A program made the translations under genes and the position numbers. Under the pieces are notes generated by a model that ran no database searches, was not told the origin of the DNA, and saw nothing but the letters and a program-made list of their open reading frames with translations. Positions 1-58,913 of a stretch of DNA of 64,000 nucleotides are shown here, in pieces. The stretch spans positions 186,001 through 250,000 of the forward strand of contig JASSKH010000006.1 of assembly GCA_031763025.1 (NCBI GenBank), given 5' to 3'. Origin of the DNA: Macrocystis pyrifera. Its lineage: Eukaryota; Sar; Phaeophyceae; Laminariales; Laminariaceae. Each line of letters begins with the position of its first letter. Position 1 is the stretch's first letter.

Positions 1-208
1 CCCGCCCCCAAAACATCACCAAGACCATAGCAGCACTCCGACAGTGACCAACTCGAGACAATTTGTCCAGCGAAACAAGTTCCACGCGTTAGCCTACGAT
101 CGTCCGCTTCTGTAGATGTCGAGTGTGTGGAAATCGGTCAGGTACAGCTCTCGCAATTTACCCTAGTGTAATCTAAAAGCAAAATTAATTTCCTATCCTA
201 ACGGAAAA

Positions 209-510
209 AATGCCAAAAAAAAAACGGTACACCAGCGCTTTTTTTTGCCAGTTTTCGGTACGAAAACTCAAACCAGGCCATCAGGGTACACCAAACCCAA
301 GTTAGATGGCATTTTGTGTCAAGGTATACCGTTTTTTTGGGCGAAACATCCATGTCCGTCCGTCTCACTTGCGAAAATGCCAAAAAACGGTACATCATTG
401 TATTTTTGCCAGTTTACGGTACGAAATGTAAAACGAGGTGATCAGGGCACACCAAACCCAAGTCATATGACATTTCTGTCAAGGTATATCGTTTTCTGGC
501 AAACAAACAA
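209..510. repeat. Diverged direct duplication, two units of about 135 bp
   Basis: Units at about 209-345 and 376-510 share the order GCCAAAAAA, CGGTACA, TTTTTGCCAGTTT, CGGTACGAAA, ATCAGGG-ACACCAAACCCAAGT and GTCAAGGTATA. They differ by many substitutions and short indels, so the duplication is old. Both strands have short open frames here, but none resembles a protein. Confidence 0.75.
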
Positions 511-1129
511 TGTCCCGGTACGGCTTATATTTTCGAATCAATACTGCGTGCGTCAATAGAAGCGCCTTCTCGTACTCGTATTCCTACGAACATACCAGGT
601 ACGAGTCAAGCGTTGCTTATATAATCTGAAGCCATTTTATTTCGTTTCGTGCGCGTGCGTGTAGTCAGAACACGGTACCGCGGGCGAGCCCGGCGCCGCC
701 GCGGGTGTCAGCGGGTGCTAGCAGGCAGAGGGGGTGTTGCAAGGAGCGCCTTCGCCGTTTGCATGGCTAGGCGTCGCGTGTGTCTCGAGACACGCAGGAA
801 GCACAAATGGTATCTGTCTGGCCTCCTTGTGAGGCTCCGCTTGCACCATATACGAGATAGAAGGGTCGTTTTGATATGTGAAATAGTATTCAAGCGGTAC
901 TTATTTTTGCGACCAAACTAAACGTCAAAGAGACTTCAATGCAGTTTGAGCACCAACTTTGTCGAAGTGGCGAAGCAGGGCCACGGTGAGCACCAGGCTT
1001 GACGCGAGGCGGTCGACGACGCTCGCTCACTGTGGCAGAGATGGAGGAAAACTTTATCCGGACCCAATCGGTGATGAGGTGGTCGCGAGACGGGCGGGCG
1101 GCGTACAAGGCTGAGAGGGAAGCTCTGCT
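511..1129. other. Unassigned sequence, no gene recognised
   Basis: Short open frames occur on both strands (for example 649-921 and 999-1129), but they are arginine-rich translations of GC-rich DNA and show no domain. A TACCAGGTA palindrome lies at 593-601. Joining 1129 to 4421 restores the site before the LTR element inserted. Confidence 0.5.
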
Positions 1130-1134
1130 GTTCG

Positions 1135-1400
1135 TGTTGATTGTACTCAGATACACGACATATAAGATCCATGGTAGATTGGGGAGTTCCACGCTGGAAA
1201 GGCATTCCGGCAGTAGGATATTGGGATATCGGGGTAATGTGTGCCCACCAATGCCACTCGTCAGGTGCAACCCTACACTGCATGTAAGGCGAGTCAACTC
1301 TACAGCGAGGATGTAATATAAGAGGAGTTATTTTTTATGTCTGGAGTCAGCCACGGGTTCCCGTGCCAGCTGCGCCTATACCTTTAGGGATCAATCAACA
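1135..1400 (+). repeat. 5' LTR of the 1.1-4.4 kb element
   Basis: This 266-bp LTR begins TGTTGATT and ends AATCAACA. It carries a TATA-like TATAAGATCC near the start and pairs with 4155-4420. Confidence 0.88.
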
Positions 1401-1406
1401 CACTAG

Positions 1407-1424
1407 TGGTAGTCGGGCGATCTT
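1407..1424 (+). promoter_or_regulatory. Primer-binding site of LTR element 1
   Basis: TGGTAGTCGGGCG lies six bases after the LTR. It begins TGG, the complement of a tRNA CCA 3' end. The tRNA species was not identified. Confidence 0.55.
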
Positions 1425-4146
1425 CTATTGGCAAGCGTAGCCAAGGCCAACCTAGAGAGGTGGGAACCTGCTTCCAGCATGTCTATTCTTTTTAGATGAT
1501 GTGCTTCGTGAGGGAGCCGGCGTGTGTGAGTATTGTGAAGATGAGATCGAGGTCCTGGAGGAGAGGACGTGTGTGTGAGAAGAGTCAGGAGATGCCGCAC
1601 CAGGAGAGCAGCAGCGATCCCAGCGGGGCCAAGTTTGAGCCGGACCTGGTAGAATCGCTTGGCACTGGTGGCGAAGGCGCTGGAGAGTAGTAGTTGCAGG
1701 GACAGCAGCAGCTCCAGCAGCACCGTCAGCACCGTCAGCAGTCAGAGGATTGTTGCACTTTTGTTGCGACGGTGAAGCGCATGCAGTAAGCACCGTTACC
1801 GTCGCCGTCGTCTCGACTGCCGCATAACCGTCGCTGATGCAAAACCCCGGGATAGGCAGACATCTGCCTGAATCGGTGGGTTCGCTGCGCGCTGGCGACA
1901 TAAATGTAGAACGTATATTATTATATGAAAGAGGGAGTTTGGCCGGCAGGAGCCGGGTGGGAAGGTGGAGACCGCAGGAGGGACTCTGAAAGCGTTTTGG
2001 CAGAATTTGCCTGGACTGCTGAAGCACCACGCCCGCAGGTGGTTGATGGAGGGGACGTTGCTCCCGAGGAAGGAGTCGAGGGTGAAGATGGGCGCAGGGG
2101 GAGGAGTCTGCATCATCATCTGTTCGGGATGCGGTGCCCCAAGAGAGAGGAGGAAAGAAGGGATAGAGGCGCCACCGGCAAGGATTTACGTCCGCACCAG
2201 GCACGTTTGGCTTGCTTGGTTGATTGACTGCTGTGGTGACTACCGTTTTTAGAATCATTGTGTTTAAGAACGGTTGAGAATCTGCGAACATTGGAGATTC
2301 AGATTTATTTGGGAATACGAACTGGAAATTAAATGAGATGCACAGACGTACACGTATACAGTATACGTATACGTATACGTATAGCTTCCCTCACTGAAGT
2401 TTTTCTGTAGACGCACTGCTGTAGGACTATGACGTCTGTCTGTTTTATGGTTGACTGGTCGAGGGCTCTGGTTGAGCATCGACACGAGTACAGCAGGAAG
2501 AGGTGTATGTGATGAACCCTTGTGCCCAACTACAGCAACACGTCTGTTTGCGGCATTTCACATATTTACATCTTTGTATGCGGGTATCTCGTTTTTGAGT
2601 TGTTGGGTTGGTGTGTAGCACGACCCGCGCCACTTGTTACGTGCTAAAGACAAGATATTTGCGGACGGAGTAATATACTATACGAGTACAGCAGCAGCAG
2701 AAAGTAGTATGGTACTGTGAGCTGAGACGAAAACGGTTTACTTGGCATATGTTCATCAAGTATGTACTACAGGATATAGAGTGGTCGAGGAATACATGGG
2801 TTTGATGTGGGACCAGATATTCTCGTTGACAAGTAGCTACCTATTTGCAGTAGCATTTGAAAAGTTAACTATACCAAAGAGGAGTTTGCAAGCAGTGCAT
2901 ACGCAGATCTAATCGCTCGAATGCACGCCCCATCCCTTCTGTATGCCGGGTCAATGCTGCGGAGGCGACGTTTAATTTCACCCAGGAGGAATAGCTGGAT
3001 GACCCGAGCTGCGGTGACACCATGAGACCGAACGGAGAGGCAGCCGCGGCGGGGGCAACAGCAATAGTGTTCGGGGCATCGGGGTGATTCTTACTGAATG
3101 CGGTTGCCTGTGAATCTGGATGAATATTTTCATTGCTTGTATTTTGGAATTGTTTTTTTTTCTGGACGATTTGGATTCCGCGAGAGTTTTAGGTGTTTTC
3201 GAGTAGTCCCAACGTCAAATAAAATTCAAGTGAAGGAATGTATGCTATCTCGCATTACCGTCGCGATCTGTGTATCTATGGCGGGAGTAGGGGACAAGGG
3301 GAGACTCTTGTCCGGGGGAACGGGGTTCCTTGCGATCTCTGGCATTTATTTTCTTGGCTTAATTTTTATTTTGATGAGTATGGCTACTATGATGTTTTTC
3401 CATGATTTTCATTAACTTCCTATAAATTTGAGGGAGGGGTTTTTGACGAGATTAAAGAGAGACTATGAAGCGCCTGGGGGCGTGTGCGGTCCATGTGAAA
3501 TGTTTTCTGATTTGGAAGGTTTGGGTAGTATTTCGGAAATTGAGAGTTTGATTTTTTTGGTTGTTGAAAATTTGTGCTTTTGTTCAAAGTCAGTACTGAC
3601 TAAGTGGTCTAGCAGGTAGTGCTATATAATTCCCTAGGGTGGGTCGGGAGTTGAAGTCTCGCCGAATTCGTGAGTTGATCTTTTCGAGCTTGCGCGCTGG
3701 AGACAATACGAATGATTATGATAGTGTGCCTGTAGACACCAGTAGCGTTTGGCGAGGGGAGAGCCCCGGAGATCACTGTACGAAGTTGACGAGATCCCAC
3801 TGTATATCTTTGGACCAATTCCGCGAAAAAATGCCGTTTTACCTGACCGAATCCGAGAAGAATGCCGTTTTACCTGGCGTTGGATTTTGAGAGTTTTATG
3901 TGTTTGTAACAGAGAGGCTGGGGATTTGAGCATTTGAATACTGATTTGAGGATTTGAGTGTTGATTCAAGAAATTGATTTTTGAGTTTCAGATTGGATTT
4001 TTGACTTTCAGAGTTTGATTCGAGTTGATATTTTTATTGAGATATATCAGCCCTGCGATGTCACACATTTTCATGTACAGAGCTGAGGGGAATATTGATC
4101 ATGCACAGGAGCAGGGGGGATATGAGTATGGTCGTGTATATTGAGT

Positions 4147-4154
4147 AGGGGGGA
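4147..4154 (+). promoter_or_regulatory. Polypurine tract of LTR element 1
   Basis: AGGGGGGA immediately precedes the 3' LTR. The same eight bases precede the 3' LTR of the 42.4-48.3 kb element, suggesting both were copied by related enzymes. Confidence 0.75.
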
Positions 4155-4420
4155 TGTTGATTGTACTCAGATGCACGACATATAAGATCCATGGTAGATT
4201 GGGGAGTTCCACGCTGGAAAGAGATTCCGGCAGTAGGGTATTGGGATATCGGGGTAATGTGTGTCCACCAATGCCACTCGTCAGGTGCAACCCTACACTG
4301 CATGTGAGGCGAGTCAACTCTACAGCGAGGATGTAATATAAGAGGAGTTATGTTTCATGTCTGGAGTTAGCCACGCGTTCCCATGCCAGCTGCGCCTATA
4401 CCTTTAGGGATCAATAAACA
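4155..4420 (+). repeat. 3' LTR of the 1.1-4.4 kb element
   Basis: This LTR is 266 bp and about 95% identical to 1135-1400. It ends AATAAACA, which may also serve as a poly(A) signal, and is followed by the GTTCG duplication. Confidence 0.88.
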
Positions 4421-4425
4421 GTTCG

Positions 4426-5039
4426 TTTGTTTTCTTTTTGACCGGTGGAGCGGGCAAGCGGTAAACGCAACTCGTGAGTCACGTTTAAAAAATCAACTAA
4501 GGGGACGATAAGTAACTATCCCCTTGTACCCGCGTCGTCCAACCCCATACAAACATCCAAACCGTTGGATACTCCGGTCAGCGAGTCAGGGGATCTTACG
4601 TACCGAACACATGCCAAGGCTGAGCCTGACACGGCCACGAACCGCGGCTAAGCAAGATACGAAAGCAAAATCGCTCGCAGTAGCCTTTGTCCTTTTGTGG
4701 TCAGTCTAAAGCTCTAGATTCGAGCGGCTACCTCGGCACGAGCAGCGAGAAGCCTAACAATAACAACACAGCAGTCCAGGTTGAAGCATGCCTTCAAAAA
4801 AGAGGTGGGTGCAGATGTGCAGATGGTGTAGACTGCTGTAGACCGACCTACTGTTGTATCTATTGCTGTCGCTCGTGACTCTTGACCAGAGGGTTTGGCT
4901 GTTGATTCACAGCAGTTTTTTTCCTTGTGTCGAATGTGTCCCAGTTTTTTTCCTTGTGTCGAATGTGTCCCTGTTTGGTTGGTCGGATCTGCACGTCAGC
5001 TGTGAGTTCAACCGATCGGTCGATACTCAACTTTCTGCA
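4426..5039. other. Unassigned sequence with a small tandem duplication
   Basis: No gene is recognised. A 30-bp unit (core TTTTTTTCCTTGTGTCGAAT) is tandemly doubled at about 4912-4972. At 4999-5036 there is a partial copy of the CAGCTGTGAGT / GGTCGATACT family that recurs at 7.9-9.6 kb. Confidence 0.55.
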
Positions 5040-5310
5040 CACCCCGGACAGCTCATGAGCTAGCTCATCTATTGTGCATAGCTCACGCTTCGAAAACATG
5101 TGCAGATGAGCTACCGCCTATAGCTCAAGCCGGGGGAAACATATGTAGCTCATGTAGCTCCTATAGCTCATCTCGGGCGCAGATGAGCTACTGTAACTCA
5201 TGTAGCTCCTATAGCTCAGCCTGGGAAAATGTGTGTAGATGAGCTATCTTCTGTAGCTCAAGCCTTCAAAACATGTGCAGATGAACTACCACCTATAGCT
5301 CAAGCCTTCC
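5040..5310. repeat. TAGCTCA minisatellite
   Basis: Four or five degenerate units of roughly 60 bp share ACATGTGCAGATGAGCTAC, CCTATAGCTCA and ATGTAGCTCC. The array stops exactly where the helicase reading frame begins, so it replaces or interrupts the helicase N-terminal part. Confidence 0.8.
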
Positions 5311-5314
5311 AAAC

Positions 5315-5866
5315 ATCGACGCCGCCGACAGAGCTGGGCTAAAGCTGGACGGGCTCCCTCGAGGTGTCATCGGCTGCTGTCCGGTTTACAGGAAGTTCTC
5401 CATCGTTGGTAAAGGCAAGCGGAAATTCACCATCAACAGAATGCAGGTGCCTCTGTCTCTTGGTATTATTTCCTCAGTCTATCGAGCACAAGGCGAAACC
5501 ATCCCTAAACTTGTGCTCGACATTCGTAAGCCAGTAGACGGCTATATGGACAGCGCGGCTGTCTACGTCGCTCCGTCCCGAGCGACCGATGCCAGCAATC
5601 TCTTCTTGCTGTCGCTGGTTACTCTCGACGATCTGACCCATCCACAGGACGATGTAGCGGCTATGATCGACTACCTCGAACGCCTCGACAAGGCTACAAT
5701 AGCCTTGTTCTTGGATGATCCCTCTACATTCCGACCGGCCACGACAAGTCCTCCGGCTAGTTATACATCCCACACCAACGACGGACAAACAGACACTGGC
5801 TCCATCCGCCCTTCACCTTTTCTGCCGCCCAATGAAACAACAATTGCTTCTTCAACGCCGCCATAG
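5315..5866 (+). pseudogene. PIF1/Helitron-type helicase, C-terminal fragment
   Basis: The frame is open from 5315 through the methionine at 5441 to a stop at 5866. It shows the end of a superfamily 1B helicase: RMQVPLSLGIISSVYRAQGE matches the PLTLAYAITIHKSQG region (motif V), and AAVYVAPSRATDASNLFLL matches the YVALSR region (motif VI). The Walker A and B part is absent, since a minisatellite lies upstream. After the helicase comes a Pro/Thr/Ser-rich linker. About ten codons before the stop, a different frame opens onto the peptidase cysteine box at 5845. A Helitron fragment is most likely because such helicases are spread by Helitrons, but no Rep domain or Helitron ends were found. A cellular PIF1 relic is the alternative. 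Confidence 0.7.
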
Positions 5867-6979
5867 CCTCCGCCATAGCTGCTTGGGAAGGACACCCTCT
5901 CCCCAACCCAACCATGGCAACACCAGCTGGAGCCATCTTCGTCTTCTCCACTCTTGCGGCTGTGCGTGCCTGCATGTTCGACGGCAAGCCTCTCCAACGC
6001 ACCCTCTTGGTAAATTCTTGCTTGTTCTGTTATCCACATCTCGTCGTAATAATACCCCCCAATACTTACCGGCGCCCGCAAGTACCCATATATATATATA
6101 AATACTACGTTGTGCTTTCATGTGTCTTCCAAACGTATTGTATCATTTCGTTCGGTATGCGGCGCATTCTTTGGCGGAATGCAGGATTCGTTGTCTCAAG
6201 CACGTGACAAGATCCTTGGTAGTAGCGGCCTACCGGGCGCAGGATCCGTAATGGGAACGCCAGGCTCCATATACGAAGCGATCACCCTTCGACCTGATGA
6301 TCAACTCCACCCCAACAGCGGGTGGCCAGGTGACGTCGTGGAACGACATGCTCGTATCATGTACACTCGGACGGCTCTCGGATTCAACTCGCACTACACT
6401 ACCGATTGCCTTATCGAAGACCATGGCCATATCGAGATAACCGCATCCCAATGTGCACGATGGCGAGATCCCGCACCAGTCTGGATTCCGCACGGACCGG
6501 CCCAGTCACTCCAGGATGCAGTCAATGCCTTGTTCCTAACCGGAGCCGCCTCCGACTTCTCATTTCCTGGACCTGCTCCGTGCCCCCCCTGCGACGAGAG
6601 CTGCGCCCGGCACATCAGCACATCCACATGGTCGATTCTTCCTTGGAGTGCGGACAACGCCCCAGATCGCGTTTTCTTCGCGTCTGCACGTGTAGACATC
6701 TACGAGGACGCCGGAGAGCCGCCAGCACCGTCACCCATTTTCATGATAAGCGTTGAGTACTGCCTCGTAGCTGTCATCTACTCCCTTCCGAACCATTTCG
6801 TGACCCAGTTGCGTTCGAGAGGGCGGTGGTTGAAGTACGATTGCATACTCGGGGGGAGTACCACGTCTTGCGACGATTTCGACTATGACTGGTATCATGG
6901 TTTCCAGCATATGTATGTCTACCTTCGAAAGTCTATGACCTTGCCTGTTCCCCGGACACAAACGACACACATACCGTAG
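5836..6979 (+). CDS. C19 (ubiquitin-specific protease)-like cysteine peptidase domain, two exons
   Basis: Exon 5836-6009 encodes NNNCFFNAAIASAIAAW, which fits the USP cysteine box (consensus NxGNTCYxNAxLQ), with the Cys codon at 5845-5847. An intron at 6010-6184 begins GTAAAT and ends TGCAG; its phase is 0 on both sides and it joins two different frames cleanly. Exon 6185-6979 carries CPPCDESC and ends in a histidine box, YCLVAVIYSLPNHFVTQLR followed by GRWLKYD. That matches the USP pattern YxLxAVxxHxxxHFxxxxR...WxxYD. The joined exons give about 322 residues. A stop at 5833-5835 and a one-base frame offset separate this domain from the helicase, so the two may be one polyprotein with a lesion or frameshift. 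USPs cleave ubiquitin-like modifiers; the role of such a domain in an element is unknown. Confidence 0.55.
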
Positions 6980-7960
6980 TGCTAGCTACCATGAGCGCGC
7001 AAGCCAAGAACGCACGAAGATAATCGAGGCGACTAGACAAGGACCCATCATGCCTCCGCCTTACCGACGTCCTGGCCACTACGACGTGGGGAGCGCAGCT
7101 GTGCCTTGCCGACTCGAATCCGACGTACCGCTGCCTTGAGCGTCCCACGTGTTCTTCATATGTGTGTTGAAATGTTTTGATTTTTGATGCGATATTGCTT
7201 CTCGATTAGGACTGCCTGCCTTCTTGTTTCTCTCTTTTTGCTAGAACGCATTTTGCAGAAATGTTGCACGGCGCGTCCAGCCTTTCGAGTTCTGCGCTGC
7301 TACATTTATATTAACTGTTCGGTCGACAGAATGTTGTTTACGGGGTGCATGTACGTGACGATCATCGGCGAAAAGTCTACTTGTATGCCTTTTGTCATCT
7401 TGGACTTCACGGCAGCGTTTTATTTGGTGTGGGTGTGTTCGCGACACGTCGAGGTCATCCCAATCTGCGCGATGCGACTGTGGCGTTTAGTTTATGTTTT
7501 TTGCTTCGAAATAGCGGCAACAGCAGCATCTGCAAACAAGTAAATGTTCTACGTGGCAAATATCGACGTCGCGAGAGAATTGTCATACCGCCAGCCAACC
7601 TTTTGTTATATGGTAAAACCCTAGGGAACAGCGGGGCAACCCTTGCCCTGCCCTACAATCAGTATTACAAAACACAACTTTTTTAGTTACAGACAGACGA
7701 AGCCTTTACCCATCGCTGTACGAAAAAAAAATCCTATCGGCGAAAACTCGCTCCCTCGTTTTTGGCGCTTGGCGCCAATTTAATTTAATTGCCGGCTCCA
7801 GGTAATACCGTGGGCGTGCGGCCGTTTTTTTTTTTTCGTTGTTCGTGCTAGCGCGAGATGAGCTTCACCTCACGCGACAAAAGTGCCGCATCGTGATCCC
7901 CGACCCCGACTGTGTCGGGGCGGCCTCGGGCGTGCTTGCACCGTGCTCTGGCTGCCGGCT
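6980..7960. other. Unassigned sequence, no gene recognised
   Basis: Only short open frames without recognisable domains occur. A hairpin GGGCAACCCTTGCCC lies near 7634-7649, and a TTGGCGCCAA palindrome near 7770. Confidence 0.5.
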
Positions 7961-12396: not shown

Positions 12397-14586
12397 CTAC
12401 CTCATACCCGAACAGAGTTGCGATTCAAACGCGTCAAACTTACGCTGAAAACGGGATGCAACTACATCAGCACCCTCGTACAGTAGCGACTTAGTTGACT
12501 TTGGGTGCGGCTGTGCAAGTGCAACAAACGAGTTATGGAGAGCTTTAGCCACAACTTCATTCGGTGCCAGAAAGTCCGCCACCGATTCGGACTGGTTTAT
12601 ATCGCCTACACGGTTATAGTCAAAACACACCACGAATCCAGGATCCAGCTCTCCGAGGAAGGAGTGCACCACGGCGATATCCGTAAGCAAGACCTGCATG
12701 TACTGCATATACTTCTCCTGTGGCGTTGGTGTTCCCCCATTTTTCAGCCCGCTGTGACAACGTCCAACCGTAGCCCGTTGTAGAGTGTGCGGACGGACAA
12801 GCACAAGCGCATGCACAAGCGCACGACGGATGTCAATGCACAGCTCTATCGACACTACGGCTGATGTTAGATACCAGGAGGGTAACGTCGAGTCATCGCG
12901 AACGTATCTCGAACATGAGTGGTTCAGGCATAACACCGTAGACAGACAAGGACACTAGATAACGACCTCGAGAACAGCCTACGGACTCGACTAAACCGAC
13001 TAGCGACCTCCGGGTTTCGAGCTTCCGTGCATCATGTTTACCGTGCTGTAGATGCATCAACTGGGGAATTAGAATGCACCACTCGGCGGAGACCCGCCGA
13101 AATAGAGCGGAACCATGCACCGAGAAAGTAGATGTTCGACGTAAACAACGCTTACTGATAAGTGATAGGCCATCGCTCTGACCCACAAAATCTTTGACGC
13201 GTTGAGGGAAATCAAGTGATTACCGGGTGGTGTCGATACCGACAGGTACAAGGATCCAATACAGTTCAGATGGTTTGTTGGTGTGTTTTTCTCTCGTGTT
13301 CGCCCTACGCCGGCATGCTTTTGTAACCAACCACATACATTCTTTCATGTACATATGGCCCATTTAGATGCGAAAAAACGATTTCACTTGCGGACTACAG
13401 TACCAAACTTGGTTGTCCAGGGTGACGGTTTGACCAAGCTTACAGTATGGCATGTCGACCACATCGCCATTGCCAGCGGAGAAAATATAAACTGTGAAGC
13501 TTTTGGATCGTATTCCGGGAGCCACTAGCTACATTGCGATCGACCGCATATTTATCATACATTTTCAGCAGGTATTGGCATAAGCGTGAAATCCGGTAAG
13601 CTCATACACTTCTCATCAATAGAACGCCGTGTAACAAAGAATCTACCGTAGATCATTTACATATACAATCAACCCGTTTCCAGAGCTTGGAAAGGTCTGA
13701 CACAACACTCTTACGCTGTTACGCTGGAGACAGTATACCATATACAGTAGATGCCTGGTACTCGTGTGTACACTACGTGCTCGTCCAGGTCAGAACGTTC
13801 GACATCCAACGAAGCTACACAATCAGTACCATCCATGACACAACCTGGCCGTTTGTGCAAAAAACGAGATGGGTAAGAGAAGAGTGCAAACTAAGGGCCA
13901 TCAAGTGTTATCAGTGCTGTTGGTCAGACTCACGTTTGGAATTTCCGATGAACGGTTGTAGAGATTAGCATATCCATAGCAGACCGCTGTAGATACATTA
14001 TCCGGAAGTCCACACCCTCAGCTTCCGCCACCTCTGCCAGGATGCGCAGGTCAACGTAGCTGAGTCCTTTGTTCGGGCCAAAACCATGGGGATATGATAA
14101 TCTGCCGGACATCAGCATCATCGTTCCTGGATGTTCCATCTCCGCCCCGCGCTCAGCTAGCTTACGCATATCGTCTCTTGCACGGTCACGCGCTTTGCTA
14201 TAGAGGGGCACATCCTGCCCCATTGCGTATTCAAGTAGGTAGAATTCATAGTTGATTTCTCCAGCGGGGACTTTAACCAAGTGTTTGTTAGTGCGGAACA
14301 TGCGAGCATAGACCTCGTCAACGTAGTGATGTCCTGTGCCCTCTATTCCAACCGCGAAAACCAAACGAAGTTTTGAACTGAAAACTGTCTTGGCGAGGGT
14401 GGGTGTATAGTTTGCCTCAGACGCGACTTCGAGGGAGACCGGGTTGCTGCCACGAACGTAGCCATCACTGCCCAAGCGATAATTGTGTTCACAAGCCTCA
14501 TGACCACTGCCCCTCTTCTCGAAGAATCTCCCAACACGCGTTATATGTTTGCGTACAGGTGCTCGCGCCTCGACCTTCACCTGCAT
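12397..14586 (-). CDS. Sulfotransferase-like protein, two exons
   Basis: Exon 1 is 14586-13934 and exon 2 is 12751-12397. The donor is GTGAGT directly after 13934 and the acceptor TTGTCACAG precedes 12751. The phase agrees across the 1,182-bp intron, giving about 335 residues. FAVGIEGTGHHYV (residues about 76-89) has the form of a 5'-PAPS-binding P-loop. LQRSAMDMLISTTVH (about 199-213) matches the 3'-phosphate loop of sulfotransferases (R-D-x-S pattern, with S-A-M-D here). LDPGFVVCFDYNR and ADFLAPNEVV follow in exon 2. Such enzymes move sulfate from PAPS to sugars, lipids or proteins, usually in the Golgi. No membrane anchor is visible, and the frame stays open upstream of ATG 14586 to about 14690 without an ATG, so a 5' exon may be missing. 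Family assignment is by motif only. Confidence 0.6.
12752..13933 (-). other. Intron of the sulfotransferase-like gene
   Basis: The donor AAC|GTGAGT is close to consensus. The acceptor CACAG lies just before a frame that continues the family sequence. Further small exons inside cannot be excluded. Confidence 0.6.
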
Positions 14587-14949
14587 ATCGTTCACCAAGG
14601 CGGGTTTGAGATTGCAGTAAATTAGCGACTCACAACATGTTAAATTGTTTTTACAGGAGTGAGAACAAGAAAATCTTGACTAGCAGCACCGGAACTTTAC
14701 TTCTGACCAAAGCGCGTAAACAGAGATCCCGAGGCACAGCCACATGTTTTGCATTAGGTAAAAGTGGTGCTCCAGATGTATGTTAAGGTATTGACCCCTA
14801 TGCTCAAAACAGTTCATATTTCTCAGATATTCCTGGATAAGGAGGAAACGCGTGCTGAATACGTGCAAACAACGTGTTGTATGCTCATGCCATGTACACG
14901 CGCTAAAGCGTTCTACTATTTCTATTGGAGCGGTCCAGACATATTGGTG

Positions 14950-34631: not shown

Positions 34632-37318
34632 TTACTCCTCTTGTTGCCCCTCCTCCCCCCATTCCCTTGGACACCACCCACGGGATGCGGATGCGCGGCG
34701 CTGCCTGCTCAGCTCAGCCTCAGCCTCGTGCCACCTCACCATGAACCGTTCGGCTGCTTCCAGGATCCCCCGGTACCACTTCCCCGCCTTTTTTGCAGCA
34801 GTGGGCCACAGTGCGGTCTCAACTCCAAACACCAAGGGAGCAAGTTCCGTTGACCCTTCGGTGGCGCGGAACTCCCTAAGGTCTTCGACTACGCATCTAT
34901 GCCAAGTCTTAACCTGTCCGCCAGGTCTCGGGTTCTCCCCACCAGCAATCGTCCCGAACATCACCCGGCTAGGTAATCGATCCTTGCTTTGCCGTGCCAC
35001 CCCCCCCGCGAAGAAGAGACGCCGTTTGCGGATGGTCGTTTCGATGCTCTCGCAACGTGTCATCTTGAGGGCCTTCGCGTACGAGAGGGTGGCATGGTCA
35101 GTACGAAGTCGGCGTTGGAAGCCAATGACTCGCAACAGAACTTGGTGGTGAGCCGTTCGAAGCTTGGCAAAGTGTTCCGCTCTGAGGGTCCACGTCACAC
35201 ACCCGTAGAGCAGGGTCTCAATCACCTCGGCCTTCAGCATTCGGACTTTCAGGCTAAGGGGGGCGGTCGTCCTATCATACAGCTCCGGGCCGAACCGTTT
35301 GAGGCATGCTCGCATGAGACGGATCCGTCGGTCGATTTCGAGCGAGAGGTCAGCATTTTCGTGGATAACGCCGCCTAGGTACAAGAACTGGGCCGTCTGC
35401 TTATACCTCTGGCCTGCTGCTTCGATAACGAGCGGTGGTGCGAGGGTTTTCTGGTCTGGCGTTTGTAGAAGCATAGTCTCTGTCTTCTTTTCCGACACCG
35501 TAAGGCCTGCTGCTTCGAAGACAGTCACGATGACTGTCATCATTTTCGCGAGCCCTTCAGCCGACTTCGAGACAATCCCTGCGTCATCGGCGTACAACAT
35601 GCCCCATACAGCCCTTCGCACGTACGTCAACGGCTCCTGCTCCTCCGTCCCGGCTACTCCAGCATCACTAAGTTGGACCAAATCCCTTACGATTGCTTCG
35701 TCATGGCTAAAGCGTACTAGTACGACGTGCAACGCAGCAGCGAAAAATACGTTGAACAGTAACGGTGACAGCACACAGCCTTGCCGCAGCCCCTGCGTGA
35801 CATCAAACCATTCCGAGTGCTCGCCGTCATCCGTACGCACGCGAGCCCGCATGCCATCGTGGAAATTACGGATAATTCTCAGCATCTTGGTTGGTACGCC
35901 AAAACGTGTGAGTACTTCCCATAACAGCTCTCGGTCGACAGAGTCGTACGCTTTCTGCAGATCGATGAAGCACAAGTACAGGGGGATTTTCCTCTGTCTT
36001 CCAAGCTCTTGCAACCGGCGCACGACGAACAACATATCAATCGTTGATCGTGCGGGGCGGAAGCCGCACTGTTCCTCCGGGAGTAATTCCTCGGTCTCGC
36101 AGTAGTTGCTGAGGCGCGACGCGACGATTTTCAACAAGACTTTGCCTGCGTGGGCAACCAGCGAAATCCCTCTGTAGTTGTTGCAATCAGTTCGGTCCTT
36201 CTTTTTGTGAAGGACCTTGATGATCGCGTCTTTCCATTGCTGGGGGACTTCTCCTGTTACCCAAACATTGACAAGGATGTTGTGAAAGCACTGGGCGAAT
36301 GCGGGGTGGTCGATTTTCAGGAGTTCGGCCGGGAGACCATCTGGCCCGACAGCTTTCCAGTTTGACATCCCCTTAAGTGCTTCCGTCATCTCGTCCATGG
36401 ATGGTTCATCTCCGAGCGACAGTTTAAGCGGTCGTGGTGGCAAGAGGTCGATGATCGTGGGATCGAGTTTAAGCGATTTCGTGTTCAAAAGTTTGTGGTA
36501 AAACCTCCCCCACCGTTCACGAATTCGCACCTTATCCCGCAACAGCGTGCCATCCTCGTCCCTAATGAACTGTTCGCTTCTCGCTTTAGTCCCTTCCAAT
36601 CCTACCGTACTTTTAAGGTGCTTGTAAAAGCCTCTCTGGTCGTTGTTCGCTAGTAGTCGTTCGGTTTCAGCGAGGTACGCTTCGAAGTACGCATGCAGTC
36701 CTGCGGCAATCACCTTCTGCAGGTTCGCACACGCAGATCTCAGTGTCTTCCACGCGGTTCTATCCTGGGGGTGGGCAAGCAAGAATTGCCGTGCATCCTC
36801 CCTCGCTGTCCATGCTAACATGAATGCGGTCACGGTTTCGGCAGACTCACACCATCCATGTCTGCGGTGGCGACGTGGAGGGGGTGGTACCTCTTTTTCG
36901 ACCGCATCAATAATAGCCGCAGTGAAAAACTCAACCATGCCAGACGTATTACGGGGATGGTTAGGCTGGTTGAGAGTGGAGACGACCCTCGCGACTACTC
37001 GTTCACGACACTTTCCATCGGACATAAAAAGCTGCCTGTCGAACTCTCGGCGTTTTGTCGGTCTACGTATTTGTCTGTTGGACGCAAAGTGACCACTGAG
37101 TCGGACTTTGACATACAAGATGTTGTGGTCTGAGTCAGCCTTAGCTGGGGCAGGAGGCTGTGGGACGACTTTAACATCTTGTACTCTAGGTCGATGGGCT
37201 TGACGGGTTAGGATGTAGTCGATCCGCTTACGGTCACTCGGGCTGGTGCCGTTGTGTGTATGCGAAATCCCACCCTTGCGCGTGCTGAAAAACGTGTTGG
37301 TGAGAGCTAACTTGCAAT
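34632..37318 (-). CDS. LINE reverse transcriptase region (copy B)
   Basis: This part of the LINE protein copies element RNA into DNA at the nicked target (target-primed reverse transcription). The frame is open from 37318 to the stop at 34632. It begins with the end of the endonuclease, including SDHNIL with the catalytic Asp-His. Counting from Leu 37118: NYRGISL at about 314, motif [13 protein letters not shown] at about 384, motif [16 protein letters not shown] at about 442, motif C YADD at about 509. About 40 residues separate motifs B and C, more than is usual. The C-terminal part has no clear zinc knuckle. Motif order and the short-repeat tail fit the RTE group. No proper start exists here because the nested insertion cuts it from its N-terminus. 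Confidence 0.88.
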
Positions 37319-37589
37319 TGTTGTTTTCTTCACATTAAACGTTCTTTCTACGCGTCGACATCCAGCACAACCTGTGTCCGTGCCGATTCTTCAAACCTAG
37401 AGAGATACAAGTTCTGTGGTCACAAAGCTACGCCACAGAGATACTACGTTGCCACGTATGTAATGCAATGCCATGTCATCATACTGCGTACGACAGGCAC
37501 GACATACACATTCCATGACTTAGAAAAACAAAAACGAAACAAAGAGAAAAAACAAAAACAAAAACAAAGACAATTCGAAAGAGAAAAGA

Positions 37590-37637
<48 letters not shown>

Positions 37638-38160
37638 AAAATATACCTGGTATATGTATATACTTCAGTATAGCAACAAACCATCGTACCCCCACTAGGG
37701 GACGTGGCAGACACTTGAAAAGAACGAGCTGGAAAAAGAAAAAGAAAAAGAAGAAAACACCACTAGTCGTCAACAGAGTAAGACTAAGAACCAAGGTAAA
37801 ATAACAGTCAAACCAAACAAAGCACAAGGCATGCTCCAGGTAGCGGCAGCAGTTTATGGTACGAGTAGCACAGCCAGGGTATCCCTGCTGGCCCGCCTGG
37901 TACCTTGCTACCCTGTCTGCCACCATCGTCCAGCGTTCGTCAACTATGCCCGGCCCCTCGGCGTCAGACAGTACGAAACAAGCAGAGCAGGCTCGTCATC
38001 CACCCACGCCACACGACTCCTTCAATAAGGCTTATCAATCGGAGAAAGGAAGAAATGAAAATCACATAGGGTCACCGCAAAGAAGACAATAAAATGAAAT
38101 AAAAATAAACAAAAACAACAGGAAGACAAAGGAAGACCACGTTCGAACCAGCTGCACCAG
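37319..38160 (-). mobile_element. Nested LINE 3' end inserted in the endonuclease of copy B
   Basis: It starts (minus) at CTGGTGCAGCTGGTTCGAAC and ends at GTGAAGAAAACAA. It is nearly identical to copy B's own 3' UTR, including the long A-rich run. The 5' junction falls at CCACCAA, present in both the target endonuclease and the 3' UTR, so microhomology probably guided it. It is 5'-truncated and non-coding. Confidence 0.85.
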
Positions 38161-39101
38161 TTGGTGGTGGCGAACGACAGGAGTCGTCTGCCATTATCAT
38201 TACGAGCATCACGCCCATATGCTCCAAGCACTCTATTTTCATCATCACCACACCCTTCCATCCTCTGTCCAGTTCGCGCGTTGGCATCCATCAGTACAAA
38301 CAGACACTCTTTCGTCGGGATCTTTTCCACCAAGTCCTCCAGCTTCTGCCAGAAGCTACGTTTCAGTCCAACGTCTTTGGTACAATCAGTTGGAGCATAC
38401 GCGACGACGAAATTAACTGCCTCGTATTTGCTAGCCAGCTCAAAGCGCATAGACATAAGCCGCTCGTCAATGAACTGATGAGTGTACACAGCCTTACTGC
38501 ACAACGATTCCTCTACAGCTAGACCTACTCCGTACAGCCCTTGCCTAGCAGCTGTTGTTTCCTGACCTGAACAGAAAACGCGATACCCTGCCGCACGAAA
38601 CGTCGTGCTACCGGTCCTCCGGGTTTCCTGCAGGCCAATGAAGTCACAGCCGAGTTGCCGTCCCTTCGCCAGTACACTCTCGTCATGTCCGTACCCGTTC
38701 TTCCCCTTTACAGCCAGGGTGCGCACATTGTAGGTCGCTACCGCGACCAGTGCCTCCTTCTGTCTCTTACGAACCTCGCGTGCTGCTTTCTTTGCCAGCC
38801 GACGTGAGGCTCGTCCCCGCCTCCTTTTTTTCTTCTTTTGTTTTTTTTTCTTCTCTATGGCGAAAGTGGCTCTCCGTTTCGTAGCCCGGTACGCGCCTTG
38901 GTTTCCGTTGGCTGGGTGCAGCCGTCCCAGCCAACGCCGACATTCCCATCCTTCCTGTCGTGCATGCATACCCACGCTGTGGCCAGCCTCTCCACTCCCC
39001 CGACTGCCCGTGTAGCGCTCTCTGCTGTGGTGATGTACCCGTCCCGCCAGAGGGATGAACTCCTTGGCGTCGGGGTTAAGAAGAAAAAACATCACCACCA
39101 C
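38161..39101 (-). CDS. LINE endonuclease region (copy B), cut by the nested insertion
   Basis: This is the apurinic-type (EEP fold) endonuclease that nicks target DNA for LINE integration. A basic, lysine-rich N-terminus precedes the domain start VATYNVRTLAVKGKNG. IGLQETRR supplies the catalytic Glu, VAYAPTD and LMDANARTG the Asp-x-Asn site. The frame runs into the nested 3' end after RRLLSFATTN, so the SDH motif is now separated, at 37130. The sequence is closely matched by 55690-56433. Confidence 0.88.
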
Positions 39102-39160
39102 CCCACGCGGTCCTTAAAGCGACCAGGCCACCAGCCGGACCGCGCAAGGTACCCTCTCTA

Positions 39161-55343: not shown

Positions 55344-55689
55344 TTACGGGGGTCCACAGTTAATAGGATCTATGGTCTCTTAGTCTCACGAATTCGAGAG
55401 GCCTTGTCTTCGGCCTGCCCCGTCCTTGGGGTGGGCCGAGGAAGTCCGCAAGGATCTGCAACGGTCTAGCGACAGTCACACGAACATCGAGCTTCTGGCT
55501 GAGTAGAGAGGGTACCTTGCGCGGTCCGGCTGGTGGCCTGGTCGCTTTAAGGACCGCGTGGGGTGGTGGTGATGTTTTTTTCTTCTTAACCCCGACGCCA
55601 AGGAGTTCATCCCTCTGGCGGGACGGGTACATCACCACAGCAGAGAGCGCTACACGGGCAGTCGGGGGAGTGGAGAGGCTGGCCACAGC

Positions 55690-56433
55690 GTGGGTATGCA
55701 TGCACGACAGGAAGGATGGGAATGTCGGCGTTGGCTGGGACGGCTGCACCCAGCCAACGGAAACCAAGGCGCGTACCGGGCTACGAAACGGAGAGCCACT
55801 TTCGCCATAGAGAAGAAAAAGAAACAAAAGAAGAAAAAAAGGAGGCGGGGACGAGCCTCACGTCGGCTGGCAAAGAAATCAGCACGCGAGGTTCGTAAGA
55901 GACAGAAGGAGGCACTGGTCGCGGTAGCGACCTACAATGTGCGCACCCTGGCTGTAAAGGGGAAGAACGGGTACGGACATGACGAGAGCGTACTGGCGAA
56001 GGGACGGCAACTCGGCTGTGACTTCATTGGCCTGCAGGAAACCCGGAGGACCGGTAGCACGACGTTTCGTGCGGCAGGGTATCGCGTTTTCTGTTCAGGT
56101 CAGGAAACAACAGCTGCTAGGCAAGGGCTGTACGGAGTAGGTCTAGCTGTAAAGGAATCGTTGTGCAGTAAGGCTGTGTACACTCATTTGTTTATTGACG
56201 AGCGGCTTATGTCTATGCGCTTTGAGCTGGCTAGCAAGTACGAGGCAGTTAATTTCGTCGTCGCGTATGCTCCAACTGATTGTACCAAAGACGTTGGACT
56301 GAAACGTAGCTTCTGGCAGAAGCTGGAGGATTTGGTGGAAAAGATCCCGACGAAAGAGTGTCTGTTTGTACTGATGGATGCCAACGCGCGAACTGGACAG
56401 AGGATGGAAGGGTGTGGTGATGATGAAAAATAG
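55690..56433 (+). CDS. LINE endonuclease region (copy C)
   Basis: This is the N-terminal part of the LINE protein: a Lys/Arg-rich leader, then an EEP-type endonuclease with YNVRTLAVKGKNG, IGLQETRR (catalytic Glu), VAYAPTDCTKD and LMDANARTGQ (Asp-x-Asn). The frame stops at GDDEK because of one extra A in an A-run (copy B reads GDDENRVLGAYG). The rest of the domain continues in the next frame to SDHNILYVK near 56690. Start 55690 is the first reasonable methionine in the frame, but translation could begin further upstream. Confidence 0.85.
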   Translation: MGMHARQEGWECRRWLGRLHPANGNQGAYRATKRRATFAIEKKKKQKKKKRRRGRASRRLAKKSAREVRKRQKEALVAVATYNVRTLAVKGKNGYGHDESVLAKGRQLGCDFIGLQETRRTGSTTFRAAGYRVFCSGQETTAARQGLYGVGLAVKESLCSKAVYTHLFIDERLMSMRFELASKYEAVNFVVAYAPTDCTKDVGLKRSFWQKLEDLVEKIPTKECLFVLMDANARTGQRMEGCGDDEK

Positions 56434-56888
56434 AGTGCTTGGAGCATATGGGCGTGATGTTCGTAATGATAATGGCAGACGACTCCTGTCGTTCGCCACC
56501 AATTGCAAGTTAGCTCTCACCAACATGTTTTTCAGCACGCGCAAGGGTGGGATTTCGCATACACACAACGGCACCAGCCCGAGTGACCGTAAGCGGATCG
56601 ACTACATCCTAACCCGTCAAGCCCATCGACCTAGAGTACAAGATGTTAAAGTCGTCCCACAGCCTCCTGCCCCAGCTAAGGCTGACTCAGACCACAACAT
56701 CTTGTATGTCAAAGTCCGACTCAGTGGTCACTTTGCGTCCAACAGACAAATACGTAGACCGACAAAAAAACGCCGAGAGTTCGACAGGCAGCTTTTTATG
56801 TCCGATGGAAAGTATCGTGAACGAGTAGTCGCGAGGGTCATCTCCACTCTCAACCAGCCTAACCAGCCCCGTAATACGTCTGGCATGG

Positions 56889-58913
56889 TTGAGTTTTTTC
56901 ACTGCGGCTATTATTGATGCGGTCGAAAAAGAGGTACCACCCCCTCCACGTCGCCACCGCAGACATGGATGGTGTGAGTCTGCCGAAACCGTGACCGCAT
57001 TCATATTAGCATGGACAGCGAGGGAGGATGCACGGCAATTCTTGCGTGCCCACCCCCAGAATAGAACCGCGTGGAAGACACTGAGATCTGCGTGTGCGAA
57101 CTTGCAGAAGGTGATTGCCGCAGGACTGCATGCGTACTTCGAAGCGTACCTCGCTGAAACCGAACGACTACTAGCGAACAACGACCAGAGAGGCTTTTAC
57201 AAGCACCTTAAGAGTACGGTAGGATTGGAAGGGACTAAAGCGAGAAGCGAACAGTTCATTAGGGACGAGGATGGCACGCTGTTGCGGGATAAGGTGCGAA
57301 TTCGTGAACGGTGGGGGAGGTTTTACCACAAACTTTTGAACACGAAATCGCTTAAACTCGATTCCACGATCATCGACCTCTTGCCACCACGACCGCTTAA
57401 ACTGTCGCTCGGAGATGAACCATCCATGGACGAGATGACGGAAGCACTTAAGGGGATGTCAAACTGGAAAGCTGTCGGGCCAGATGGTCTCCCGGCCGAA
57501 CTCCTGAAAATCGACCACCCCGCATTCGCCCAGTGCTTTCACAACATCCTTGTCAATGTTTGGGTAGCAGGAGAAGTCCCCCAGCAATGGAAAGACGCGA
57601 TCATCAAGGTCCTTCACAAAAAGAAGGACCGAACTGATTGCAACAACTACAGAGGGATTTCGCTGGTTGCCCACGCAGGCAAAGTCTTGTTGAAAATCGT
57701 CGCGTCGCGCCTCAGCAACTACTGCGAGACCGAGGAATTACTCCCGGAGGAACAGTGCGGCTTCCGCCCCGCACGATCAACGATTGATATGTTGTTCGTC
57801 GTGCGCCGGTTGCAAGAGCTTGGAAGACAGAGGAAAATCCCCCTGTACTTGTGCTTCATCGATCTGCAGAAAGCGTACGACTCTGTCGACCGAGAGCTGT
57901 TATGGGAAGTACTCACACGTTTTGGCGTACCAACCAAGATGCTGAGAATTATCCGTAATTTCCACGATGGCATGCGGGCTCGCGTGCGTACGGATGACGG
58001 CGAGCACTCGGAATGGTTTGATGTCACGCAGGGGCTGCGGCAAGGCTGTGTGCTGTCACCGTTACTGTTCAACGTATTTTTCCCTGCTGCGTTGCACGTC
58101 GTACTAGTACGCTTTAGCCATGACGAAGCAATCGTAAGGGATTTGGTCCAACTTAGTGATGCTGGAGTAGTCGGGACGAAGGAGCAGGAGCCGTTGGCGT
58201 ACGTGCGAAGGGCTGTATGGGGCATGTTGTACGCCGATGACGCAGGGATTGTCTCGAAGTCGGCTGAAGGGCTCTCGAAAATGATGACAGTCATCGTGAC
58301 TGTCTTCGAAGCAGCAGGCCTTACGGTGTCGGAAAAGAAGACAGAGACTATGCTTCTACAAACGCCAGACCAGAAAACCCTCGCACCACCGCTCGTTATC
58401 GAAGCAGCAGGCCAGAGGTATAAGCAGACGGCCCAGTTCTTGTACCTAGGCGGCGTTATCCACGAAAATGCTGACCTCTCGCTCGAAATCGACCGACGGA
58501 TCCGTCTCATGCGAGCATGCCTCAAACGGTTCGGCCCGGAGCTGTATGATAGGACGACCGCCCCCCTTAGCCTGAAAGTCCGAATGCTGAAGGCCGAGGT
58601 AATTGAGACCCTGCTCTACGGGTGTGTGACGTGGACCCTCAGAGCGGAACACTTTGCCAAGCTTCGAACGGCTCACCACCAAGTCCTGTTGCGAGCCATT
58701 GGCTTCCAACGCCGACTTCGTACTGACCATGCCACCCTCTCGTACGCGAAGGCCCTCAAGATGACACGTTGCGAGAGCATCGAAACGACCATCCGCAAAC
58801 GGCGTCTCTTCTTCGCGGGGGGGGGCACGGCAAAGCAAGGATCGATTACCCAGCCGGGTGATGTTCGGGACGATTGCTGGTGGGGAGAACCCGAGACCTG
58901 GCGGACAGGTTAA
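56889..58913 (+). CDS. LINE reverse transcriptase region (copy C)
   Basis: 674 open codons. In order: a linker ([20 protein letters not shown]), the finger/palm region with [12 protein letters not shown] and [13 protein letters not shown], motif [13 protein letters not shown], motif [16 protein letters not shown], motif [13 protein letters not shown], and the C-terminal [21 protein letters not shown] change in the G-run near 58820 moves the last 150 codons to another frame (to 59304). Identity with copy B is very high by eye. The enzyme primes on the nicked target and copies element RNA. Confidence 0.88.

Follow-up and report, generated by a model that had tools for sequence, protein, structure and literature searches.

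Among rolling-circle transposons, Helentrons have been described as carrying OTU domains (PMC4067079, available sections) and VTD deubiquitinases, the latter marked by an Asp-x-His pair (Erven et al., 2022, PMC9741609, available sections). According to the same parts of the latter report, VTD domains borne by Helitrons cleave ubiquitin, and its authors argued that herpesviruses and Helitrons gain from deubiquitination, whichever class of deubiquitinase they acquired (PMC9741609). Helitron2 elements are marked by asymmetric terminal inverted repeats and terminal hairpins in the accessible description (PMC5148889). The available text of a study on Pleurotus Helitrons refers once to a cysteine protease from the Helitrons of cnidarians, fish and frogs, and the words 'peptidase', 'ubiquitin' and 'OTU' do not occur in it (PMC4289320); that of a paper on Ectocarpus transposons uses 'helitron' six times and 'protease' once, and does not use 'peptidase' (PMC12477816). 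Among the titles and opening lines of abstracts listed from the open literature, none reported a Helitron with a USP-type domain.

The window analysed here is a stretch of 64,000 nucleotides from Macrocystis pyrifera (C220:186001-250000), and the genome searched was an assembly of 537,376,219 bases in 223 contigs. The reading favoured for the repeat described below, to which we assign a probability of about 0.7, is a dead Helitron2-like copy of a family whose fuller form would encode Rep, a PIF1 helicase and an intron-split, USP-like deubiquitinase protecting RepHel, as OTU and VTD domains are thought to do elsewhere. Ten copies of the family were retrieved at 14 kb apiece, and later copies included L029, L030, L052 and L054. 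Based on blastn boundaries, the whole repeat unit, a Helitron2-like, non-autonomous derivative, extends from 157 to 7659 on the forward strand, with approximate ends. The part common to the ten copies was about 4.2 kb, to which the window version adds a 3.3-kb LTR insertion. The 5' boundary fell at window positions 157-168 in seven of the ten copies (L021 is inverted there, L017 is without that part and L009 is a wider duplicate), and the 3' boundary at 7657-7678 in nine, the exception being L009, which duplicates the window region over 12 kb at 97.9% identity.

The 5' end at 157-180 (forward strand), recognized from aligned 5' ends, is the remnant of a TTCCCTAGGGTTTACCCTAGGGTA hairpin followed by ATCTAAAAGC; in intact copies this end reads TTCCCTAGGGTTTACCCTAGGGTA(A)TCTAGAAGC and forms a hairpin (-7.9 kcal/mol, z -2.8). 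The 3' end at 7612-7658 (forward strand), defined from the 3' ends of 11 copies, comprises the subterminal inverted repeat GGTAAAACCCTAGGGAA and a GGGGCAA-CCC-TTGCCC hairpin, and terminates in CTACAA before a T. The repeat GGTAAAACCCTAGGGAA, the inverted counterpart of the 5' end, is found some 30 nt in from the 3' terminus, and behind it come the second hairpin (fold z -1.6) and CTACA(A); a T stood directly behind the terminus in 10 of 11 copies, the window included. Copies joined head to tail were found at two junctions, in L019 near 3646 and in L011 near 9582, and L023 had a partial second copy just upstream of 5521, as expected of rolling-circle transposition. The family is therefore like Helitron2 in its asymmetric terminal inverted repeats, its hairpins at both termini, the T of its 3' flank (10/11) and the head-to-tail arrangement of L011 and L019, and differs from it in two features, the CTACAA termini before T and a peptidase domain, that are not in the accessible Helitron2 description (PMC5148889); the stretches of the divergent relative described below showed no such termini.

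The insertion at 1135-4420 is an LTR retroelement inside the Helitron (strand unassigned), with two LTRs of 266 nt (1135-1400 and 4155-4420) that are 95% identical, and a target duplication, GTTCG, at 1130-1134 and 4421-4425. Among the ten copies it was found only in L009, which shares it because L009 is a duplicate of the window region; L017 does not hold that part of the unit. The same LTR also seems to be present inside the Helitron on contig C141 (L056, about 994-1263; by eye, from translations).

A fuller relative was located on contig C141, with Rep (PF14214, 1.8e-16) at 503263-504399, an LTR-like sequence recognized by eye, a PIF1 core (4.5e-12) at 508627-509838, and a helicase C-terminus and peptidase domain at 510.3-512.3 kb, in that order. 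The last part was 54% identical to the window family, and its peptidase domain (L052) showed 61% identity. This relative contains the LTR-like sequence and one frame break, and is the sole copy in which Rep was sought and found; no unbroken element of the window family was seen among the copies examined. Because Rep, the PIF1 core, the helicase C-terminus and the peptidase domain follow one another on C141, the window family is a Helitron, with both Rep and PIF1 present in this relative. At a tblastn threshold of 1e-3, the first 15 kb of the window and the ten copies fetched first showed neither Rep nor a helicase core, so these are non-autonomous derivatives, and the window copy is both dead and non-autonomous. 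The compact copies would have been moved in trans, if at all. An AP endonuclease, which marks Helentrons, was absent from Pfam scans of the window-family and L052 ORFs, a set with no intact autonomous copy.

In the window, the C-terminal part of a PIF1/Helitron helicase with motifs V and VI occupies 5315-5722 (forward strand) and is encoded in frame 2 within the ORF at 5285-5866. It matched PIF1 in the PDB (E 2.3e-4) and had no Pfam match over the cut-off. Upstream, an AGCTC-rich tandem repeat at 5041-5310 (forward strand) occupies the position at which L025 and L030 continue with helicase sequence; downstream lies a Pro/Thr/Ser-rich linker at 5723-5833 (forward strand), read from the translation and from other copies. 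The succession proposed in the original prediction, from helicase motifs V and VI through this linker to a Cys box, an intron and a His box, is present in the window. The prediction had also pointed to a one-base frame offset between the two domains. The offset exists, between 5835 and 5836 on the forward strand, as a gap against 10 other aligned copies, and is not general, as each of the 13 further fetched copies with both parts has the helicase and the Cys codon in one frame (L009, L011, L013, L015, L019, L021, L023, L025, L027, L029, L030, L052 and L054). It is therefore damage to the window copy and not a feature of the gene. L017 is outside this count for want of the helicase part, as are L053 and L055, in each of which only one part was found; within it, L015 carries an in-frame stop upstream and L027 a frame shift just behind the Cys codon. 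The common frame supports the suspicion of a single protein, with helicase and cysteine-peptidase-like domain in one spliced ORF, and the family would accordingly encode a fusion of the two.

The pairing also recurs across the genome. The helicase part had 150 places among the matches listed, and at least 89 of these were followed on the same strand, after 0.3-2.0 kb, by a listed peptidase place, so that the two domains do lie side by side at other loci, the point for which a tblastn check had been suggested; none of the 150 had a listed peptidase place upstream or on the opposite strand. For the 61 without a peptidase place among those listed, the lack reflects in part the limited length of the lists and in part real losses. 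The peptidase places counted were the 129 listed plus 38 of another 151, picked by eye as non-overlapping.

Three further observations concern the helicase. A truncated copy with the same TAA and a near-equal score was present on C4, C5, C14, C22, C32, C38, C98, C150 and other small contigs, which suggests an amplified or unplaced repeat. At C191:4426, C220:67836 and C220:137879 the helicase protein was 100% identical to that of the window, with no peptidase place nearby among those listed; they may have arisen by recent duplication, and two lie on the same contig as the window. A Walker A motif read just 3' of the LTR element (about 4430-4475) was dropped, because the L052 helicase core and Rep gave no tblastn match there at 1e-3; over the whole window these queries produced just one match, of 23 residues (E 0.86), elsewhere.

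The peptidase-like domain is predicted to be split between two exons. Exon 1, at 5836-6009 (forward strand), contains the Cys box NNNCFFNAAI (5836-5865, frame 1; Cys at 5845-5847) and is conserved in L052. A phase-0 intron of 175 bp follows at 6010-6184 (forward strand), and exon 2, supported by its translation and dN/dS, spans 6185-6946 (forward strand) with CPPCDESC, YCLVAVIYSLPNHF (His at 6794-6796), WLKYD (Asp at 6839-6841) and HMYVYLRKS, the His box lying inside the frame-2 ORF at 6053-6979. Compared with ten other copies, the stretch at 6947-6979 (forward strand) is a copy-specific frame change with an early stop; past YRSASYHERASQER nine of the ten read on, and L021 stops inside YRSASYHERASQER. 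The ORF at 6053-6976 had 129 genome matches listed, itself included, with the others 77-96% identical, and an exon-2 query from a relative had at least 151. Such repeated matches across the genome indicate that the ORF is not due to chance.

Comparison among copies supports the phase-correct intron that had been proposed. The donor is GTAAGT in all ten other copies and GTAAAT in the window, and the acceptor is GCAG in nine of the ten; L025 reads GGAC before exon 2 and has therefore lost it. In eight of the ten other aligned copies the intervening stretch was 173 nt, which is not a multiple of three, so that splicing is needed to keep the frame; indels in L009, L023 and L025 permit reading through. 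L052 has an intron of 177 nt at the same codon boundary, ending in TTTTCCTACAG, and L054 one of 174 nt at the same site (GTGAGT...GCAG). Between L013 and L052 the exons were 71.3 and 69.5% identical, compared with 54.3% for the introns, for which 50 shuffles averaged 58.3%. The same site is thus occupied by an unrelated intron sequence in a relative with 61% identity. Across that distance the Cys box, CPxCDxxC, PNHFV and WxKY are kept, and L052 has a Tyr at the position of Asp 6839.

The nearest counterpart within the genome is a Helitron ORF of 1646 aa (L051, C209:1842663) with PIF1 (1e-57), Pif1 2B (1.3e-13) and OTU (8e-9) domains in one frame; it is the single OTU copy read, with 650 aa from the PIF1 domain onward. 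One genome would therefore hold one Helitron family with an OTU domain and another with a different-looking cysteine peptidase, both behind the helicase. The likeness to OTU Helitrons and Helentrons lies in a cysteine-peptidase domain linked to the Rep-helicase, a domain that in L051 follows the helicase in the same frame; the differences are that the window-family domain has no OTU match, has an intron, and spans 257 residues from Cys to His, about twice as long, as the whole OTU match of L051 covers 127 residues. With the VTD elements the family shares a deubiquitinase-type domain within the ORF of a rolling-circle transposon (PMC9741609, available sections); it differs in having a Pro where the VTD domains described there have the Asp of Asp-x-His, and the scanned ORFs gave no AP endonuclease. 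The Asp-x-His pair is missing, the residue two before His being Pro in every readable copy, which disfavours a VTD identity. The original prediction had envisaged a different peptidase fold recruited to the position of OTU: the position corresponds to that in the L051 family, and the part that did not find confirmation is the USP fold.

No Pfam match to the peptidase was obtained at E up to 10 with the window pieces, with exon-joined L013/L011 or with L052, although few matches above about 0.1 pass the HMMER filters; the profile search against UCH/C19 and OTU called for earlier was thus negative for these queries. NCBIfam had no match to the window peptidase pieces, nor had PDB sequences, whether searched by single sequence or by profile. 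This applies to a domain with about 150 encoding places among the matches listed. The UCH profile PF00443 found 74 genome places, none of which was a listed match of the ORF at 6053-6976. Profiles of the Cys and His boxes of host USPs did not rank the domain above decoys, and with a USP profile, made from 14 host USP exons at PF00443 places plus USP7 and USP2, two exon-joined domains came 124th and 297th among 1,515 sequences; the decoys of these tests included 12 window-family sequences, which were removed for the reverse test. In hhalign, the Cys box alone aligned with USP (E 0.019, probability 2.5%), and column shuffling of the USP profile gave equally high scores in 14 of 100 trials; since this null has odd extremes (maximum 138), the outcome was used only as no support for USP. 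Two AlphaFold runs gave a pLDDT of 27 and no usable model. The C19/USP label thus had neither a Pfam match nor a rank above decoys with host-USP profiles, and motif order and spacing alone favour it.

These motifs make a USP identity plausible. The order is N-x4-C-F-x-N-A, then YxLxAV..NHF..WxxYD, with 257 residues from Cys to His (C13 to H270); the corresponding spacing in USP7 is 241 residues, and the Asn five residues before Cys is presumably equivalent to the oxyanion-hole Asn of USP7. Taking USP7 as the reference for C19, the likeness extends over the N-x4-C-[FY]-x-N-[AS] box, the 257-residue spacing, the YxLxAV...[N]HF...WxxYD order, a CPxC pair between the boxes and a YxYLR end. The differences are the lack of the USP signature pattern HxG...GHY and of a profile match, and the missing Asp of L052. 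A pattern of Cys, His and Asp/Asn boxes at USP spacing, written after the sequence had been seen, occurred in L013 and L023; it was absent from L052 and from all of 200,000 shuffles.

A rival of lower, although still considerable, probability is that the domain is a non-USP cysteine peptidase (a novel papain-like family, or an OTU, Josephin or UCH that has diverged far) serving the same role. The profiles used gave no C19 signal, another Helitron in the genome, L051, carries OTU, and the Cys box NNNCFFNA fits OTU, whose Cys motif is N-C-L-F-x-A, nearly as well as USP. Against this, PF02338 had no match at E up to 10 in the window pieces, exon-joined L013/L011 or L052, while the positive control L051 scored 8e-9, which disfavours OTU. 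The 257-residue spacing and the YxLxAV...NHF...WxxYD order are USP-like, and in the reverse profile test 16 USP sequences stood as a group above the decoys (p 2e-4; best single E 3), the 14 host exons among them being paralogues and so not independent; the best match kept to the register expected, YxLxAV..H[FY]..Wxx[YF][DN]. No relatives outside this genome were found in viral and genome contigs by pattern and tblastn, or in phages by tblastn, a search whose pattern method detects close relatives only. We give even odds to the view that a C19 or a wholly new papain-like deubiquitinase was recruited into RepHel at the place of OTU, as a third non-homologous deubiquitinase after OTU and VTD.

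Under the favoured reading, a USP-like deubiquitinase protecting the transposase, the fuller form of the family would encode Rep, the PIF1 helicase, a flexible linker and a C-terminal, papain-fold-like cysteine peptidase with one phase-0 intron, with Cys 5845, His 6794 and Asp 6839 as putative catalytic residues. Its proposed targets are the transposase and the proteins present where transposition takes place; by stripping ubiquitin or a ubiquitin-like protein from these, the domain may let RepHel escape proteasomal removal. By analogy, removal of ubiquitin or a ubiquitin-like protein, to the benefit of transposition, is most likely what the domain does, and this predicted job is the one thought to be done by OTU and VTD domains in other Helitrons and Helentrons. 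An OTU family and an unrelated-looking peptidase family in the same place and the same genome would amount to a natural replacement experiment; if both domains are deubiquitinases, function and not fold would be under selection. A cis-acting processing protease that cuts the Rep-helicase polyprotein is improbable by comparison: the domain does stand behind a Pro/Thr/Ser-rich linker, and such cutting has been raised for OTU in Helentrons (PMC4067079, available sections), but the VTD domains borne by Helitrons cleave ubiquitin (PMC9741609, available sections).

Comparison of L013 with L052 yielded dN/dS of 0.24/1.33, 0.25/1.16 and 0.28/2.86, or 0.18, 0.22 and 0.10, for three segments of the domain, the dS of 2.86 in the third being near saturation. 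These values argue that the domain has been maintained as a protein, by purifying selection, between the two subfamilies. Within 11 copies, pN/pS of exon 2 was 0.48, compared with values of 0.97 and 1.18 for the two wrong frames. For the exon-1 segment the value was 0.97, with no sign of constraint, in an alignment that includes L025 and L027, frame-shifted there. Values were 0.77 upstream, 0.82 in the intron and 0.88 in the helicase segment, which includes L017 and L019, in part not homologous there. That the domain is a functionless fragment of a captured host gene is least probable of all and largely refuted, since, although Helitrons capture gene pieces (PMC4289320; PMC5148889, for gene capture in general, available sections) and many copies are decayed, it is under purifying selection between relatives with 61% identity, shows an unchanged order and intron site in L052 and L054, and is fused in frame behind the helicase like the OTU of the L051 family. 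It is a real, selected and, as it seems, undescribed cysteine-peptidase-like domain borne by a Helitron.

Elsewhere in the window, two very similar sets of LINE-type ORFs, endonuclease-like and reverse-transcriptase-like by eye, lie at 34632-39113 on the reverse strand and 55573-58913 on the forward strand, and an ORF of 249 aa at 13930-14679 on the reverse strand has the appearance of host coding sequence.
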